From: Prevotella lacticifex
Lineage (GTDB): Bacteria; Bacteroidota; Bacteroidia; Bacteroidales; Bacteroidaceae
Reading direction: 5' to 3'
NCBI RefSeq assembly: GCF_019973375.1
Contig: NZ_BPTV01000002.1
Coordinates: 605,228-669,227 of the forward strand
DNA length: 64,000 nt
Shown piece by piece: positions 31,249-52,391 of the stretch. Positions within the stretch are counted from its first letter, which is position 1. The number at the start of each line of letters is the position of its first letter. The notes below the pieces were generated by a model. It saw only the letters and a program-made list of their open reading frames with translations, was not told the DNA's origin and did no database searches. The position numbers were made by a program, and so were the translations under genes.

Positions 31249-32243
31249 CGCAATGCGAAATGAGGTTCATCCGACAAATCGTGTGATTTTGTCATTATGC
31301 AAATTGAAAAGTCTTAACTTAAAATAGTCAATGTCCCGGTAGCCATAGGCGTTTCTCTTCAAGACTTTTATTTTATTGTTGATCCCTTCTACTTTTGCAT
31401 TGCTTGTCCTACATTTGTAATAAGCCAGGATTCCAGTTCTGTAAGCGGCGATGGAATTACCCAGCTTTTCAAGGGTGGGAACTTTTGATTCCCGAGCCTG
31501 TTTTATCCAGTCATCCAGCACAGCTTCTCCTTCTTTATATGAGTCCTGCTTCCATACTTCTTGCAAGTATTCATTGAGAATGTAGGCTTTGCTCAGAGGT
31601 TCGTTCATCTTGATTACGTTATCCAATCTCTTCTTTTCATCCTCTGTAAAAATATCCTTATCATGGCGCAACAACAGCCAGCGCGTTCCCTTTATGACTT
31701 TTCTTTTTTCTAAGTCCTTCTCTTGATTATAGACCTCTCTTCTGACTTTGTCCAAGGCTTCGCCTGCCAGTTTCTGCACATGGAAGTGATCGAAAACGTG
31801 AATGGCATCAGGTAGGTTTTTCTTAATCGCAGAGATGAACGCAGCGGACATGTCTGAAGACACGGACTCTATCTTCGCGCCGCTTCTCTTCAATTTGGGC
31901 CAGAACTTCTTCAAAGAATCGATTCCTTTGCCATCTCCGACATGTATAATGGCACCACTCAACATGTCGACCACAATAGTCAGATAGACGTGTCCCTTCC
32001 TCAAAGCGAACTCATCAATACCAATGTGCTTGACATCCTTGATATCTATATGAGAAAACTTATGATTGAGATACGGTTCTTTCATTTAAATTTAGACTGA
32101 CATGGCATGATTGTTGCTCAGTCTCCGCTTTACCGCAGAAATGCTATTTGTAGTAAAGGTCTGATGACCAATGGATAAAGTATCCCCTACCCAAGCTGGA
32201 TGTAGCTTAGGGCTTATTATATATCCCTCAAAATTAACGACCT

Positions 32244-33425
32244 CTACAGACTGAGAAGAGAAATAGCATAGGCCAAGCTGTTCTTGGCGTAAGATGCAAT
32301 GGCTGAGAACTTGACTTTAAAGAGTTCTTTCCTCTTTCTGATGGTCTCTGGCAGGTGCTTTTTGGAGGCTATGGTGTAGATGATATAAACAAGCTTCTGG
32401 ATCGAGTCCAAGTTTCTGGCCGACTTTGTTTCTTTTCTCTTTGTGCGGTCCTGGCGCATTCTTGCATCCAGCGTCCAATGGAGATTGTTCTCGATTCCCC
32501 AGTGCATGCGGCTGATTCGATCCAAAGTCTGTGCCCTTTCTTCCAAACTGGTTATATAGTACCTCGTCTGTTTTTGTTCCGTTCCGCTTTTCTTTTCAAT
32601 CGTATGCGTGTCTATGGCAATCACAGCCTTGACATTGAGGAATTTTTCAAGCGCCTTGATACCGGATATGTCTGAATATACACGGCATCGGCGTTGGTAC
32701 AGCCTCCCGTGGGCAAGTTCCCACTCCGTCTTCCATTCGTCGTTAGGATGCAGCGTAGGCACAGCGTCCTCTACCGACCATCTTGCTGCTTTCTGGTTGG
32801 CTTTCAGCGCAATAAGATAGTCAGCTCCCTTCCCGACGATGCCTTTGATGATAGAACTTTGGCACGACATGGCATCCGCAGTTATAACGCATCCATTCAT
32901 GTAGTCAGCCCGCTCTATGATTTTGGGCACAGCCTTTATCTCATTGCTTTTCACCTCACACATTTCAGTGTCAAGCGGCAACCGGTCGGTCACGCTGAAA
33001 GCAGTCACAACATCAGGAGAGCGTCCGTCGCCAATTTTCGTACCCAGCATGAACTTGCCGTCAATTGCAATGTGCCGTCTGTTTGCTCCATCATGCTCCG
33101 ACACGTATTTTCGTGATAATGTCGAAACCAAAGAGGCCAAAGTAATGTCGTCGATTCCACCTTCCATCCTGCAAAGTGTGGGCTCGGACGGACATCCCTT
33201 AGCAAGAATGCCGAGGTGGTCTTGCAAGTAGCTCAAATGGATCGTTCCAAAGGCCACAATGTCCTTGCGAGTCTCGCAGCCGCATGCCCTGGCCAAAATA
33301 ACCAGCAGAAGCATGTCGGACAACTTGTGTTTACAGTTGCCTTTGTTCATCCTACGATAATCTGGTACTGAGTGGATAAAATTTAACAAATCTCGGCTCA
33401 GCAAATGCGGTTTTTCAACCGCCAA
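32244..33425 (-). CDS. ISAs1-family transposase
   Basis: A 393-residue DDE transposase. The N-terminal domain (LLNFIHSVPDYRRMNKGNCKH, LSDMLLLVILARACG) is the ISAs1/H-repeat-associated type; the catalytic core shows IAIDGK, ITADAMSCQ and WGIENNLHW. The frame opens with TTG inside a small hairpin (GCGGTT-GAAA-AACCGC), which may restrict translation; an in-frame stop lies just upstream. It is identical in translation to the gene at 34331-35512. Confidence 0.92.
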   Translation of the reverse strand: MAVEKPHLLSRDLLNFIHSVPDYRRMNKGNCKHKLSDMLLLVILARACGCETRKDIVAFGTIHLSYLQDHLGILAKGCPSEPTLCRMEGGIDDITLASLVSTLSRKYVSEHDGANRRHIAIDGKFMLGTKIGDGRSPDVVTAFSVTDRLPLDTEMCEVKSNEIKAVPKIIERADYMNGCVITADAMSCQSSIIKGIVGKGADYLIALKANQKAARWSVEDAVPTLHPNDEWKTEWELAHGRLYQRRCRVYSDISGIKALEKFLNVKAVIAIDTHTIEKKSGTEQKQTRYYITSLEERAQTLDRISRMHWGIENNLHWTLDARMRQDRTKRKETKSARNLDSIQKLVYIIYTIASKKHLPETIRKRKELFKVKFSAIASYAKNSLAYAISLLSL

Positions 33426-33485
33426 ACTCTTAATCCCTTATAGGGAAGAAAAAGTTGCATCCGAGATGATAAAAGTGCGTAATTG

Positions 33486-33517
33486 TTTGGTTATTAGCTA
33501 ATTATTTTGTATCTTTG
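33486..33517 (+). promoter_or_regulatory. Outward promoter inside ISAs1 copy 1
   Basis: TTTG-N20-TATCTTTG, a full consensus match, pointing away from the transposase toward the IS left end. It is followed by a 38-codon frame (33596-33712) whose start KGIKSLAVEKP repeats the first residues around the transposase start. Confidence 0.6.
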
Positions 33518-33528
33518 CAGTGTAAAAA

Positions 33529-33581
33529 GAAGAGGGGGCACAAAGTGCACTAATCGCACAAATACCATAAACCCCCTCTTC
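33529..33581 (-). terminator. Rho-independent-type hairpin guarding the IS transposase (copy 1)
   Basis: A 10-bp stem GAAGAGGGGG/CCCCCTCTTC. Read in the transposase direction it is followed by TTTTT, so it would stop transcription entering from outside the element. Confidence 0.5.
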
Positions 33582-34174
33582 AAAAATAAAAATATATGAC
33601 AAAAGGTATTAAGAGCCTGGCGGTTGAGAAACCGCCTTCGGGCGTTTGTGCCTATCGTCACATTCATTTAAACGGATTACATTGTGACATATTGTCTTCT
33701 ATGTCGGCTTAAATGAAAGAGCCCTTTGATTGAGATAGTTCTTGTGGATATCCTTCACCGTATCCCAACTCAGACCGAGATAGTGGGCTACATCTTTTAT
33801 CGTCATTCTATGAAGCAGTTCTATCACGAGCCTTGCCAAACGATGTGTATAGCGCTGCTTGCCGGTAACGAAATGAAGATCCTCATAGACATCAGCACCA
33901 CATGTCTTACACTTTAGACGACGCACCTTTACATGTAAGATTGATTGCTTGGTACCAATGTTGACACTGCGGATTTTACGAATCTTGAACCCGTTGCGTA
34001 CGACAACGTGACTATGGCAACATTCACATAAGGGCTCTTTCATTTAAGCCGACATAGAAGACAATATGTCACAATGTAATCCGTTTAAATGAATGTGACG
34101 ATAGGCACAAACGCCCGAAGGCGGTTTCTCAACCGCCAGGCTCTTAATACCTTTTGTCATATATTTTTATTTTT

Positions 34175-34227
34175 GAAGAGGGGGTTTATGGTATTTGTGC
34201 GATTAGTGCACTTTGTGCCCCCTCTTC
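34175..34227 (+). terminator. Rho-independent-type hairpin guarding the IS transposase (copy 2)
   Basis: Same GAAGAGGGGG/CCCCCTCTTC stem as in copy 1, followed by TTTTT toward the transposase. Confidence 0.5.
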
Positions 34228-34238
34228 TTTTTACACTG

Positions 34239-34270
34239 CAAAGATACAAAATAATTAGCTAATAACCAAA
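34239..34270 (-). promoter_or_regulatory. Outward promoter inside ISAs1 copy 2
   Basis: TTTG-N20-TATCTTTG on the minus strand; mirror image of the promoter in copy 1. The two promoters converge on the ISL3 fragment between the elements. Confidence 0.6.
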
Positions 34271-34330
34271 CAATTACGCACTTTTATCATCTCGGATGCA
34301 ACTTTTTCTTCCCTATAAGGGATTAAGAGT

Positions 34331-35512
34331 TTGGCGGTTGAAAAACCGCATTTGCTGAGCCGAGATTTGTTAAATTTTATCCACTCAGTACCAGATTATC
34401 GTAGGATGAACAAAGGCAACTGTAAACACAAGTTGTCCGACATGCTTCTGCTGGTTATTTTGGCCAGGGCATGCGGCTGCGAGACTCGCAAGGACATTGT
34501 GGCCTTTGGAACGATCCATTTGAGCTACTTGCAAGACCACCTCGGCATTCTTGCTAAGGGATGTCCGTCCGAGCCCACACTTTGCAGGATGGAAGGTGGA
34601 ATCGACGACATTACTTTGGCCTCTTTGGTTTCGACATTATCACGAAAATACGTGTCGGAGCATGATGGAGCAAACAGACGGCACATTGCAATTGACGGCA
34701 AGTTCATGCTGGGTACGAAAATTGGCGACGGACGCTCTCCTGATGTTGTGACTGCTTTCAGCGTGACCGACCGGTTGCCGCTTGACACTGAAATGTGTGA
34801 GGTGAAAAGCAATGAGATAAAGGCTGTGCCCAAAATCATAGAGCGGGCTGACTACATGAATGGATGCGTTATAACTGCGGATGCCATGTCGTGCCAAAGT
34901 TCTATCATCAAAGGCATCGTCGGGAAGGGAGCTGACTATCTTATTGCGCTGAAAGCCAACCAGAAAGCAGCAAGATGGTCGGTAGAGGACGCTGTGCCTA
35001 CGCTGCATCCTAACGACGAATGGAAGACGGAGTGGGAACTTGCCCACGGGAGGCTGTACCAACGCCGATGCCGTGTATATTCAGACATATCCGGTATCAA
35101 GGCGCTTGAAAAATTCCTCAATGTCAAGGCTGTGATTGCCATAGACACGCATACGATTGAAAAGAAAAGCGGAACGGAACAAAAACAGACGAGGTACTAT
35201 ATAACCAGTTTGGAAGAAAGGGCACAGACTTTGGATCGAATCAGCCGCATGCACTGGGGAATCGAGAACAATCTCCATTGGACGCTGGATGCAAGAATGC
35301 GCCAGGACCGCACAAAGAGAAAAGAAACAAAGTCGGCCAGAAACTTGGACTCGATCCAGAAGCTTGTTTATATCATCTACACCATAGCCTCCAAAAAGCA
35401 CCTGCCAGAGACCATCAGAAAGAGGAAAGAACTCTTTAAAGTCAAGTTCTCAGCCATTGCATCTTACGCCAAGAACAGCTTGGCCTATGCTATTTCTCTT
35501 CTCAGTCTGTAG
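34331..35512 (+). CDS. ISAs1-family transposase
   Basis: 393 residues, identical to the product of 32244-33425 and with the same TTG start inside a hairpin. It is intact and presumably active, since the element has inserted twice in the same ISL3 copy. Confidence 0.92.
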   Translation: MAVEKPHLLSRDLLNFIHSVPDYRRMNKGNCKHKLSDMLLLVILARACGCETRKDIVAFGTIHLSYLQDHLGILAKGCPSEPTLCRMEGGIDDITLASLVSTLSRKYVSEHDGANRRHIAIDGKFMLGTKIGDGRSPDVVTAFSVTDRLPLDTEMCEVKSNEIKAVPKIIERADYMNGCVITADAMSCQSSIIKGIVGKGADYLIALKANQKAARWSVEDAVPTLHPNDEWKTEWELAHGRLYQRRCRVYSDISGIKALEKFLNVKAVIAIDTHTIEKKSGTEQKQTRYYITSLEERAQTLDRISRMHWGIENNLHWTLDARMRQDRTKRKETKSARNLDSIQKLVYIIYTIASKKHLPETIRKRKELFKVKFSAIASYAKNSLAYAISLLSL

Positions 35513-35985
35513 AGGTCGTTAATTTTGAGGGATATATAATAAGCCCTAAGCTACATCCAGCTTGGGTAGGGGATACTTTATCCATTGGTCATCAGACCTT
35601 TACTACAAATAGCATTTCTGCGGTAAAGCGGAGACTGAGCAACAATCATGCCATGTCAGTCTAAATTTAAATGAAAGAACCGTACATTCACATCGAGTTT
35701 TTACATCTCTTTTTTGGATATGATGAATAATAGTATTACCTTTGTACTCAGTCTTAGTGCATTCGAAGTCCCTGATTCCGTATGCATAATAGATATAGCT
35801 GGTGTCCATTTGTCTTGTTTTTTTTAATCACTTACAAAGGTAATGGATTTCCAGCTATTTTCTTTACATCATCCACACTTTATCACACGATTTGTCGGAT
35901 GAACCCGAAATGATACGTATCAAGATGATGTAAATATATTTCAATGCCAATCGCCGATGCATTGGACTTTCTGCCACCTCAGGAA

Positions 35986-36842
35986 ATCACCCTTTTATCT
36001 TCCTCAGCCACATCATAAGTAAGACCCAAGACCGGATTATTCCAAGAGGGAATCACGGCACAGTGGATATTTTCCGTGGGTTGGATATGAGGCTTCTTCG
36101 CTGTATCGATTACATTTAGAGAGATGGAAAATAGTCCTGAACAGTCTTTAGCTCCTCATGGAGCTATGGGTCTGACGTGAAGGGGCAGCCCTTACGAGCA
36201 AGCTCGTGGGCTGCCCCTTCACGTCAGACCCGCACCTTCGGTGCCAAGCCTGTCCCGGACGAAAATCGCTGACGCGTAAAATTGCGCATGGGCGCATAAA
36301 ATCATGCAACCGATAGCTTAAATGACGACTTTCTGAATCGTTTGTGGACGGAATAGTGAGGTGCTGATATTTTATGCACCGTTAAGGTGCAATTTTACGC
36401 GTCAGCGATTTTCGTCATGGACAGGCTTTTACCCCGTAGGGGTGAGTCTCAGCCTATGGGATAGACTGCGAGCTTGCTCGCAAAGGCTATCCCATAGGCT
36501 GAGACTCATAGCTCCATGAGGAGCTATGGGCCTGTTCAGGACTATTTTCCTTTCCTTCGTGGTGATGGATGACTACACATCGGAGAAGTCTGTACAACAT
36601 ACAGAATTACTCTTACGTTTCAAACAGTTTATAGAAAATTTCTGCTTCCTCTCACCATCATTCCACGGAGAATATCCACTGTGCCGAAATCACCCTTTTA
36701 TCTTCCTCAGCCATAATATCAGGAAGACCTACGACCGCATTATTTCAAGAGGGAATCGCCCTTTTATCTTTCTCAGCCACATCATAAGGAAGACCCAAGA
36801 CCGGATTATTCCAATAGGGAATCACCCTTTTATCTTCCTCAG
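35986..36842 (-). repeat. 66-bp tandem repeat derived from the 3' end of the Crp-type gene
   Basis: Units start at 35986, (element inserted), 36689, 36755 and 36821, an exact 66-bp period. Each begins with the last ~22 bp of the Crp-type gene on the complement (encoding LRKIKG-stop) and continues with ~44 bp of spacer. The array was split between its first and second units by the element at 36056-36687. Confidence 0.8.
36056..36687. mobile_element. 632-bp gene-less inserted element (MITE-like) with nested palindromes
   Basis: Terminal inverted repeats of 24 bp (CGGCACAGTGGATATT-y-TCCGTGG; 36056-36079 and 36663-36686, one mismatch). It is flanked by AATCA at 36051-36055 and 36688-36692, an apparent 5-bp target duplication inside a 66-bp tandem array. 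Inside: AAAATAGTCCTGAACAG inverted at ~36129 and ~36531; a perfect 24-bp stem (36168-36191/36208-36231); a perfect 21-bp stem (36444-36464/36487-36507); and an inverted block with AAAATCGCTGACGCGTAAAATT. No ORF on either strand looks real. A related partial copy lies at 51717-51923. Confidence 0.7.
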
Positions 36843-51158: not shown

Positions 51159-51716
51159 TTTATTATTTGTTCTTGTTTGTTGTTATCTTTATTCAATCTA
51201 TTTCATGGGTCGGATTGTTATCCTTGCCACGATATATATATTGTCGGATGTTCCGGCGGTCGTTCATACTTCGGCAGTCGTTGTGACTTTTTCCGTTCCC
51301 CGGCGGCAACATTTGTTGCGTCGAGGGTTAATTAATGTTGTAAGGTTAGAAATAATAGGTAAGACACCAAAACTTATCGTTCGGTGATGCAAAATTATAT
51401 GAAATTCGGATAACGTGAATGTTTTTTCGTTTCCGATGAATGTATAAAATGTTGCCATGGTACAATTTTATGGTATAAAAACAGTTTTTCCACCTCATCT
51501 GTTATGATTTGTTCCGAGAGAAGTGTATGATTTGTTAACGCACACAGAGGAGAAGTGGGAGGCGAGATGATGAGGCAGATGGAATGGGCGTCAACGATGT
51601 TCTGCACCTGGCCGTATGCAGGGGCGACCACATGCCACGAATCGACAAAAGAATACGGTTATTCGGTCTAACGACCGGGCGGATCTCTGTATCTTCAAAC
51701 GGGGGAAAAGGGAAAA
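51159..51716. other. Gene-free interval upstream of the BspA-like gene
   Basis: A -7-like TAATTTTG (minus, 51390-51397) is the best promoter candidate, giving a ~225-nt leader. Otherwise AT-rich; no gene seen. Confidence 0.4.
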
Positions 51717-51923
51717 GAAAATCATGGGCAGGCTTATTCTCCCCATGGAGCAATGGGTCTAAAGCTATGGGACAGACTGCGAGCTTGCTCGCAAAGGCTG
51801 TCCCATCACTTCCACACCATGGCTCCATCGGGAGCCTAAGCCTGCCTATGACTATTTTCCTTGAGTTATGAACCTCTCTAACCAATTATGAATAATCGGT
51901 CCACGAGAAATATCCAGTGCACC
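51717..51923. repeat. Palindromic element related to 36056-36687 (partial copy)
   Basis: 51717-51861 folds end to end: GGCAGGCTTA..CTCCC-ATGGAGC arms around ATGGGACAG/CTGTCCCAT and TGCGAGC-tt-GCTCGCA. The core GACTGCGAGCTTGCTCGCAA and the flank GACTATTTTCCTT are the same as in 36056-36687. At 51901-51923 a degenerate copy of its terminal repeat (CCACGAGAAATATCCA) occurs; the left terminus is not found. Confidence 0.6.
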
Positions 51924-51974
51924 AAATAAAGGGCTGGGATTCGGACTCTCTTGTGACAAAAACCGAATATAACC

Positions 51975-52097
51975 ACTTGCGTTTGCAAGGGCTTCGCCCA
52001 TTGTTTCTTCTCCGTCGCAGGCTTGCTCCGAAGCAAGCTTCGGCAAGCCGGCGACGGAGAAGAAACAGCCTTCGTGCCTCAGGCTTGCAACCGCAAG
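51975..52097. repeat. Nested hairpin, 15-bp perfect stem
   Basis: TTTCTTCTCCGTCGC (52004-52018) pairs with 52051-52065. The loop folds further (GGCTTGC/GCAAGCC and GAAGC-aa-GCTTC), and outer arms CTTGCGTTTGCAAG/CTTGCAACCGCAAG extend it. The rest of 51924-52391 holds fragments of the ATTCGGTC/GGACGGCC and CGCAAAG repeats. Confidence 0.6.
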
Positions 52098-52391
52098 AAA
52101 AACCTTCAAAACCGCTGATGCCGCAGAATACGACCATGCGATTAGGTTTAGTTTGTAGTCGTCCGAGCGCAAGAATAAACGATGGTCGTTTGCATGGGGC
52201 GAGTAGAAAGGTTGTTACCGCTTAATAAATAAAGGATTCGGTCTTACGACCGACCGGACGGCCATAAAGGCCGCCCCTGCAACCGCACTGTGCAGCTAAT
52301 CTGTAACTATAAGGGCCATAAATATCTCAAAAACTAAAGGACACCCTCGCAAAGCCGCAAAGACCGCAAAGGAGTTTTTTCGGGGGAATTC

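Follow-up and report, generated by a model that had tools for sequence, protein, structure and literature searches.

Which enzyme placed a gene-less element inside a tandem array of Prevotella lacticifex, and what does that element carry? To answer this question we analysed a stretch of 64,000 nucleotides, referred to here as the window, together with the genome it comes from (the host genome, G000) and collections of related genomes.

A gene-less insertion inside a tandem array

Inverted-repeat detection, combined with the phase of the array, placed the gene-less element at positions 36057-36685, that is, 629 bp with no assigned strand. It is annotated as a non-autonomous, MITE-type element on the basis of its inverted ends, the array phase, the multiple copies of its ends and the 8-bp target duplications (TSDs) found in its relatives. 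The ends are inverted over 24 nt with 96% complementarity (36056-36079 and 36663-36686), and within them we set terminal inverted repeats (TIRs) of 23 positions starting from GGC, namely, GGCACAGTGGATATTTTCCGTGG on the left (36057-36079, + strand), which by eye is identical at 18 of 23 positions to the ISAon1-type end GGCGCAGGGGGATTTTTCCGTGG, and its near complement on the right (36663-36685, - strand). The insertion separates a unit of the 66-bp array on its left (35981-36056, repeat family D1) from the continuation of the array on its right (36684-36842, families D1 and D2), as seen in copy spacings of 703, 66 and 66. A previous reading of this DNA, made from the sequence only, had described an insertion that splits the 66-bp array, with 24-bp inverted ends and no transposase. 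All of this was borne out, the element being present in several copies and devoid of a transposase gene, but the span of 632 bp given then (36051-36692) is now narrowed, and the ends start with GGC rather than CGGC.

The same reading proposed a 5-bp target duplication, AATCA. The array sum alone cannot choose between the two options: 703-66 gives 637, which equals 629 + 8 as well as 632 + 5. The longer duplication is preferred because 6 of the 19 elements with both ends, the one in the window included, have an exact duplication at 8 bp (L024, L080, L090, L093, L100 and L102), and none is exact at 4-7 or 9-11 bp. Most likely, then, the target duplication of the window element is 8 bp long, with GGAATCAC as its left copy (36049-36056) and GAAATCAC as its right copy (36686-36693), matching at 7/8 positions, and AATCA is set aside. 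Duplications of 8 bp with at least 7/8 matches occur in 8/19 elements versus 7/342 mismatched pairs, leaving 11 of the 19 paired elements with no such duplication. Two elements, L074 and L091, have identical flanks outside both ends and may thus have been copied as part of a larger repeat.

Elsewhere in the window, two inverted arms of 1655 bp, 100% identical (32072-33726 and 34030-35684), each hold an ISAs1-family transposase gene, and an ISL3-like N-terminal fragment lies between them (33699-34043). The host genome is rich in insertion sequences (IS): if fragments and split matches are counted, the IS1634 model matches it 80 times and the ISL3 transposase domain 43 times.

ISAon1-type insertion sequences share the layout of the ends

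A candidate for the mobilising enzyme came from L017, a core of the host genome into which an IS with an 8-bp TSD, GCAATTTT, has inserted; this IS has GGCGCAGGGGGATTTTTCCGTGG as its ends and two ORFs, which match PF01610 as well as the upstream and downstream models of ISAon1. From the 43 PF01610 matches of the host genome, a number that includes fragments and counts four genes twice, we counted three ISAon1-type IS types with 12, 8 and 4 copies (~24 in total), whose ends are GGCGCAGGGGGATTTTTCCGTGG, GGCCCAAGGGGGATTGTCCGTGG and GGCGCAGTTTAATTCTTCCGTGT. By eye, the window end is identical to those of types b, c and 3 at 18/23, 17/23 and 16/23 positions, respectively. One copy of each type scored 325, 319 and 305 bits with the ISAon1 model, whose cut-off is 250, while the same three copies fell below the NCBIfam ISL3 cut-off (138-150 bits versus 180). 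Since the latter is unmet, the label 'ISL3 family' rests on Pfam DDE_Tnp_ISL3, whose cut-off these transposases pass. Exact 8-bp TSDs, read by eye, were found in 13 of the 16 type-b and type-c copies, and in none of L166, L179 and L180.

Because these IS types (NF049916/NF049917, Pfam DDE_Tnp_ISL3) have in common with the element both the end layout, GGC.CA...TCCGTG, and, most likely, the 8-bp duplication, its vehicle is assigned, on sequence grounds, to the ISAon1 group. This lends support to the earlier idea that the element is a MITE mobilised by an enzyme encoded elsewhere, and the class of that enzyme can be named as the ISAon1-type transposases, which the same genome encodes. Element-like ends beside a transposase, as anticipated then, do exist in related form (18/23), but the exact same ends were not recovered: no IS with precisely the ends of the MITE was found, and because the nearest differ at 5/23 positions, today's transposases might fail to move the element. 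Apart from these ends, the element differs from ISAon1-type IS in lacking a transposase gene and in its cargo, a cloverleaf pair described below. In mechanistic terms, a DDE transposase of the ISAon1 group (ISL3-like) would move the element in trans, making the 8-bp target duplication.

A search with the element returned 51 matching pieces in the host genome, itself included, and its 16-base end, with up to three mismatches, matched 63 times versus 22 for the reversed control. Other copies with the same ends, on whose existence the sequence-only reading had staked its claim, were also found more widely: across the genome collection the end pattern matches 50 stretches, of which 49 are titled Prevotella, Prevotellaceae, Bacteroidales or Hallella and one Neomarinimicrobiota. 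Within the family of the host the distribution is patchy, because the whole element matches in 0/150 other genomes, with at most three candidates scored per genome, and the TIR pattern, when at most one mismatch is allowed, gives one single match in 398 other genomes. The plasmid and phage collections held no match to the element, and in viral contigs the TIR pattern retrieved five stretches, apparently unrelated over the 130 bases inspected. Like the element, bacterial MITEs such as BrickBuilt of Porphyromonas gingivalis (PMC4596501) are described as multi-copy, intergenic and bounded by small inverted ends; BrickBuilt, however, holds 23-nt tandem repeats, whereas our element holds four-way palindromes that link it to a nuclease cassette.

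The core is an inverted pair of four-way palindromes

The core between the ends is an inverted pair of ~140-bp four-way palindromes, or cloverleafs. The left module (36127-36265, + strand), with a closing stem P1, a short P2, a long P3 and a short P4, scored 145.3 bits, and the inverted right module (36409-36549, - strand) scored 138.6 bits, with a covariance model, R1, built from 25 modules that include these two. The long P3 hairpins had been read as perfect stems of 24 and 21 bp. The first, with tip ACGAGCAAGCTCGT, is indeed perfect (36168-36231, + strand; repeat I3, arms of 24 nt at 100%), but the second, with tip TGCGAGCAAGCTCGCA on the - strand, has one mismatch (36443-36508; repeat I4, arms of 25 nt at 96%). 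The larger inverted repeat reported around both hairpins was recovered as nested arms. These are the outer core border, GGAAAATAGTC... (36126-36144, inverted partner 36532-36550; repeat I6, 19 nt, 100%), which by eye is alike in the two vehicle types discussed here, and the inner arm, AAGCCTGTCC..GACGAAAATCGC..TAAAATTGC (36246-36285, inverted partner 36389-36428; repeat I2, 95%).

When modelled as single-stranded DNA, the core (36126-36550) folds at -173.8 kcal/mol versus a mean of -57.8 for 100 shuffles, and since this amounts to a z of -26.6, the predicted fold is far beyond chance. The predicted fold of 25 aligned modules of this kind, which we call type-1 (alignment A1, which leaves out 18 of 43 modules, many near-identical and some with no clear inner side), is a four-way junction with CGAGCAAG[CT]TCG at the P3 tip, and 23 of its 43 base pairs show double compensatory changes. 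Base pairing is retained in 96.0% of the cells versus 83.5% in shuffled alignments, and 134 cells are double-changed versus 41.9 when shuffled and 24 or fewer when slid. The value observed for further pair types was reached by 8/500 shuffles, where related rows make the cells non-independent; this structure, like that of the second cloverleaf type, was derived from the same alignment it was counted on. An apical AGCAAGCT, or its complement, is present in 41/43 type-1 modules.

In the host genome, a scan that scored 150 of 928 candidates gave 58 cloverleaf matches, which were merged by hand into at least 33 distinct places; some of these hold shortened modules. Within the window, a further type-1 cloverleaf was found at 51714-51859 (no assigned strand; 100.9 bits with the covariance model), with one ISAon1-type end near 51920-51943 by eye.

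Relatives carry a GxxExxY nuclease gene between the arms

The origin of this cargo is suggested by L100 (RUG753, contig ONYL01000011.1), an element of 1091 bp with the same ends, both arms and the duplication GTATGAAT. Between its arms lies a 149-aa ORF that encodes a member of the GxxExxY family (TIGR04256/PF13366, PDDEXK_3; 87.4 and 86.6 bits), passing the Pfam and NCBIfam cut-offs, and D83, E96 and K98 (D...ExK) are invariant in 30 proteins, so that the PD-(D/E)XK motif is present. Six full or near-full copies of this ORF, 83-100% identical, were found in a search of seven genomes (in RUG753, RUG318 and Hallella mizrahii), one of them with an in-frame stop, along with more distant relatives and with remnants that for the most part cover the final 20-35 codons. 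Inverted type-1 arms flank both sides of five of the six copies (L188, L189, L190, L195 and L199), and the sixth, L196, has a type-1 arm on one side; the organisms with arm-flanked ORFs are rumen Prevotella and H. mizrahii. Type-1 arms were found at none of nine other GxxExxY loci, namely, eight distant ones and L108 of the host genome; one of the nine, L202, has arms of the second type described below.

Traces of the gene were also sought in gene-less copies. By eye, the start of the ORF survives in decayed form in L010 of the host genome, and its last codons survive in L009, for which an alignment was also made. In the window element, positions 36327-36369 (+ strand) resemble the 3' end and trailer of a GxxExxY gene: the anchored global score against five relatives, with anchors chosen by hand and relatives that are not independent, was above 2000/2000 shuffles in 5/5 comparisons. 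Free local scores in the coding sense were reached by 2, 12, 31, 35, 103 and 236 of 300 shuffles and are mostly non-significant. To judge from the anchored alignment, the centre of the window element may keep a scar of the gene.

We consider it probable that the element is an ISAon1-group MITE, moved in trans, whose cargo is the arm pair of a GxxExxY cassette that is missing its gene. At the level of sequence this reading is supported by the ends and the other copies, by transposases of this group in the host genome, by a four-way fold that is conserved and by the nuclease-flanking arms in relatives. The window copy would descend from a gene-bearing copy, and its cargo would be the cloverleaf DNA arm pair of a GxxExxY (PD-(D/E)XK) nuclease cassette whose gene was lost, probably by internal deletion. 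The nuclease, in turn, would act on four-way or hairpin-tip DNA, maintaining the core or spreading it between vehicles.

A four-way junction is a plausible substrate for the nuclease as modelled. The best of five structures predicted from a two-sequence alignment had a pLDDT of 70 and a pTM of 0.69, the others ranging from 37 to 53. With this weak model, the first rows of a Foldseek search were archaeal Holliday-junction resolvases (2wiw, E 1.7e-3, none reaching 1e-3). The likeness to the resolvase Hjc is one of fold only, Hjc being also a small PD-(D/E)XK enzyme and the arms drawing as a four-way junction; against it, restriction enzymes and SSO0001 score higher in a second structural comparison (SSO0001, Z 8.9; BamHI, 8.2; Hjc, 6.9), in which a Z below 8 may mean a common arrangement only. 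At E 0.1, the GxxExxY profile had no match among solved structures. In viral contigs we found no relative of the L100 protein, with two GxxExxY alignments giving 0 and 1 matches and a degenerate codon pattern none.

GxxExxY proteins are common: of 251 genomes sampled from the family of the host, 100 have them. In the host genome, the only PF13366 match (L108; G000:C2:708020-708370) lies amid long low-complexity palindromic repeats of another kind. At L197 (G400:C35), a distant GxxExxY gene without type-1 arms is spanned by a 170-bit inverted repeat, with a 182-bit hairpin downstream.

A second lineage of arms and the role of the core

Do the arms matter, or are they mere filler? That this is a plain ISAon1-type MITE, with palindromic filler that is selfish junk and a GxxExxY gene that is a captured passenger between arms without a role, is a serious contender, if one that we would sooner doubt than accept. 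It would account for the bare end-only copies, of 91 bp (L084/L056) and 134 bp (L079), and for the many core places of the host genome that consist of single or shortened modules. Three observations argue against it, as follows.

First, a GxxExxY protein of H. mizrahii (L202), 36% identical to that of L100, lies between 196-bp inverted repeats of 96.4% identity, and the arms at this one locus can be drawn with four stems in a comparable layout, with CGAAGCAAGCTTCG at the tip, although they are sequence-unrelated to type-1. We refer to these arms as type-2, of which 16 distinct copies were present among the collected loci, with AGCAAGCT in 13 of them. The consensus arms of both types share the 8-mers AGCAAGCT and GAGCAAGC, plus their complements, and no 9-mer, where 0.33 shared 8-mers are expected by chance in a calculation that ignores the palindromic nature of the arms. 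Second, the stems stay paired through double changes in both cloverleaf types. In an alignment of 14 type-2 copies with a hand-drawn structure (A3, from which L163 and L015 were left out), 94.8% of the cells pair and 13 pairs are double-changed versus 4.9 when shuffled; the value for further pair types was reached by 2/500 shuffles, again with related rows and non-independent cells. Third, inverted repeats of at least 30 bits span 20/31 GxxExxY genes versus 2/31 mismatched controls within 900-bp flanks, the 31 loci being the gene of the host genome and the 30 best-scoring genes, one per genome, among which L119 and L122 resemble each other. Restricted to 350 bp, the count becomes 16/30, given here with no mismatched control, and most of the spanning repeats are simple repeats, not cloverleafs.

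A solo type-2 cloverleaf, with tip CGAAGCAAGCTTCG, was also found in the window (51976-52103, + strand). It adjoins the type-1 cloverleaf noted above, the one beside a single ISAon1-type end, and the two families meet within 400 bp, at 51714-52103. In RUG318 and RUG137, ISAon1-type ends surround other palindromic fillers at L058, L064, L096 and L102, which are type-2 cloverleafs at the first three loci and, by eye, a shortened form at L102; repeats of the GGACGGCCACAAGGGCCGC type occur in L058 and L096.

Taken together, cloverleaf arms and the GxxExxY gene suggest an undescribed kind of mobile nuclease cassette. The open-licence literature that we searched held no description of an arm-plus-nuclease unit; it named GxxExxY only in passing, with nothing on flanking palindromes, mobility or function, and mentioned neither PDDEXK_3 nor ISAon1. 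For this common protein family, covarying four-way arms in two sequence-unrelated forms offer a concrete substrate to test.

It is tempting to go further, and to speculate that the cloverleaf pair and the GxxExxY gene form a class of selfish DNA unit, in which a resolvase-like nuclease recognises arms with apical AGCAAGCT, cuts them and spreads the core, gene-less copies parasitising the parasite; we hold this tentatively and think it rather unlikely as a whole. Cutting at the tip, on a displaced strand or an extruded cruciform, would copy or transfer the core between unrelated vehicles, one making 8-bp and the other 15-123-bp target duplications. The layout would be maintained in at least two lineages whose arms have hardly any sequence in common, and gene-less copies such as that of the window would be the parasites of the parasite.

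Similar core borders occur in a second vehicle

Like core borders are also found between ends CCTGACTTCRTCA. Ends of this second vehicle, CTGACTTCRTCA, have 26 matches each in the host genome and in H. mizrahii, versus 1 and 0 for the reversed control. Abutting direct repeats (within 5 bp), from 15 to ~123 bp long, were detected in 10 of 17 two-ended elements (L003, L004, L022, L187, L190, L204, L206, L227, L238 and L239) versus 0/272 mismatched flank pairs. The repeats of L206 and L238 are gapped and 77-79% alike; L235 has a perfect 111-bp repeat located 50 bp off one end; and L151, L195, L223, L231, L250 and L255 showed no direct repeat that passed. In this count, one element under two locus ids was counted once, 101/102-bp 'pairs', which reflect an end-like stretch inside the same elements, were set aside, and the 231-bp pair in L151 was kept in the 17. 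The base C precedes the A end in 18/20 cases, and the end consensus of the IS1634/IS1549 family, C-----YT, as given in a 2008 paper (PMC2266710), fits CCTGACTT.

The core may have started out in an IS1634/IS1549-like element and come to lie between ISAon1-type ends at a later stage, for example when palindromic arms recombined, an origin that we find doubtful. It would explain the like core borders between CCTGACTTCRTCA ends with their long duplications, and the hybrid elements, L016 and L039, which by eye have one end of each vehicle type. It would also fit the 80 IS1634-model matches of the host genome, fragments included, and the target duplications of 8-514 bp that the same 2008 paper reports for IS1549 and IS1634 (PMC2266710). 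But long variable duplications are what this family shares with the second vehicle, not with the window copy, which bears ISAon1-type ends, and no IS1634-type IS with second-vehicle ends, nor a partner transposase, was found among the 23 loci examined of the 80 matches.

IS1634 copies were rejected as carriers of CTGACTTC ends: a 677-aa type, present at 17 of these loci, has TTAACCCAA[CG]TTTGAC ends, and the six other loci are without CTGACTTC. In the test used, none of the 17 copies of this type had a target duplication longer than 3 bp. The 2008 paper states that no mechanistic model had yet been proposed for long variable duplications (PMC2266710); the occurrence of the same core in two transposon vehicles bears on the origin of such duplications, here of up to ~123 bp.

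RNA and REP-like alternatives

The strong conserved fold raises the possibility that the cloverleafs are an RNA made from a cassette that the vehicle moves, as in the structured-RNA cassette of the sequence-only reading. We regard this as improbable, given the following results. G.U cells are about as frequent as A.C cells (13 versus 16 in the type-1 alignment, 17 versus 16 in type-2), which gives no sign of selection on single-stranded RNA, although the test is blurred if the whole element is transcribed, its two arms being then read on opposite strands. In the element, every Rfam family stays below its gathering score, the 11 sub-threshold matches there (best E 1.9e-6) being mostly to microRNA models; in the window as a whole, just one tRNA passes.

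A REP/BIME element mobilised by a RAYT (Y1 transposase), suggested by the dispersed palindromes and by two Y1_Tnp matches in the host genome, is very improbable, as the ends of our element are long inverted repeats with target duplications, which the RAYT pattern does not comprise, and there is no linkage of cloverleafs to Y1 genes, the nearest of the 33 listed places being ~118 kb (C1) and ~225 kb (C2) away. Size differs as well, REPs being 20-40 bp according to a published account (PMC3733652) versus arms of ~140 bp. At L037 (G000:C1:735865-736230), a Y1_Tnp domain forms part of an open frame that, at 516 aa, is unusually long.
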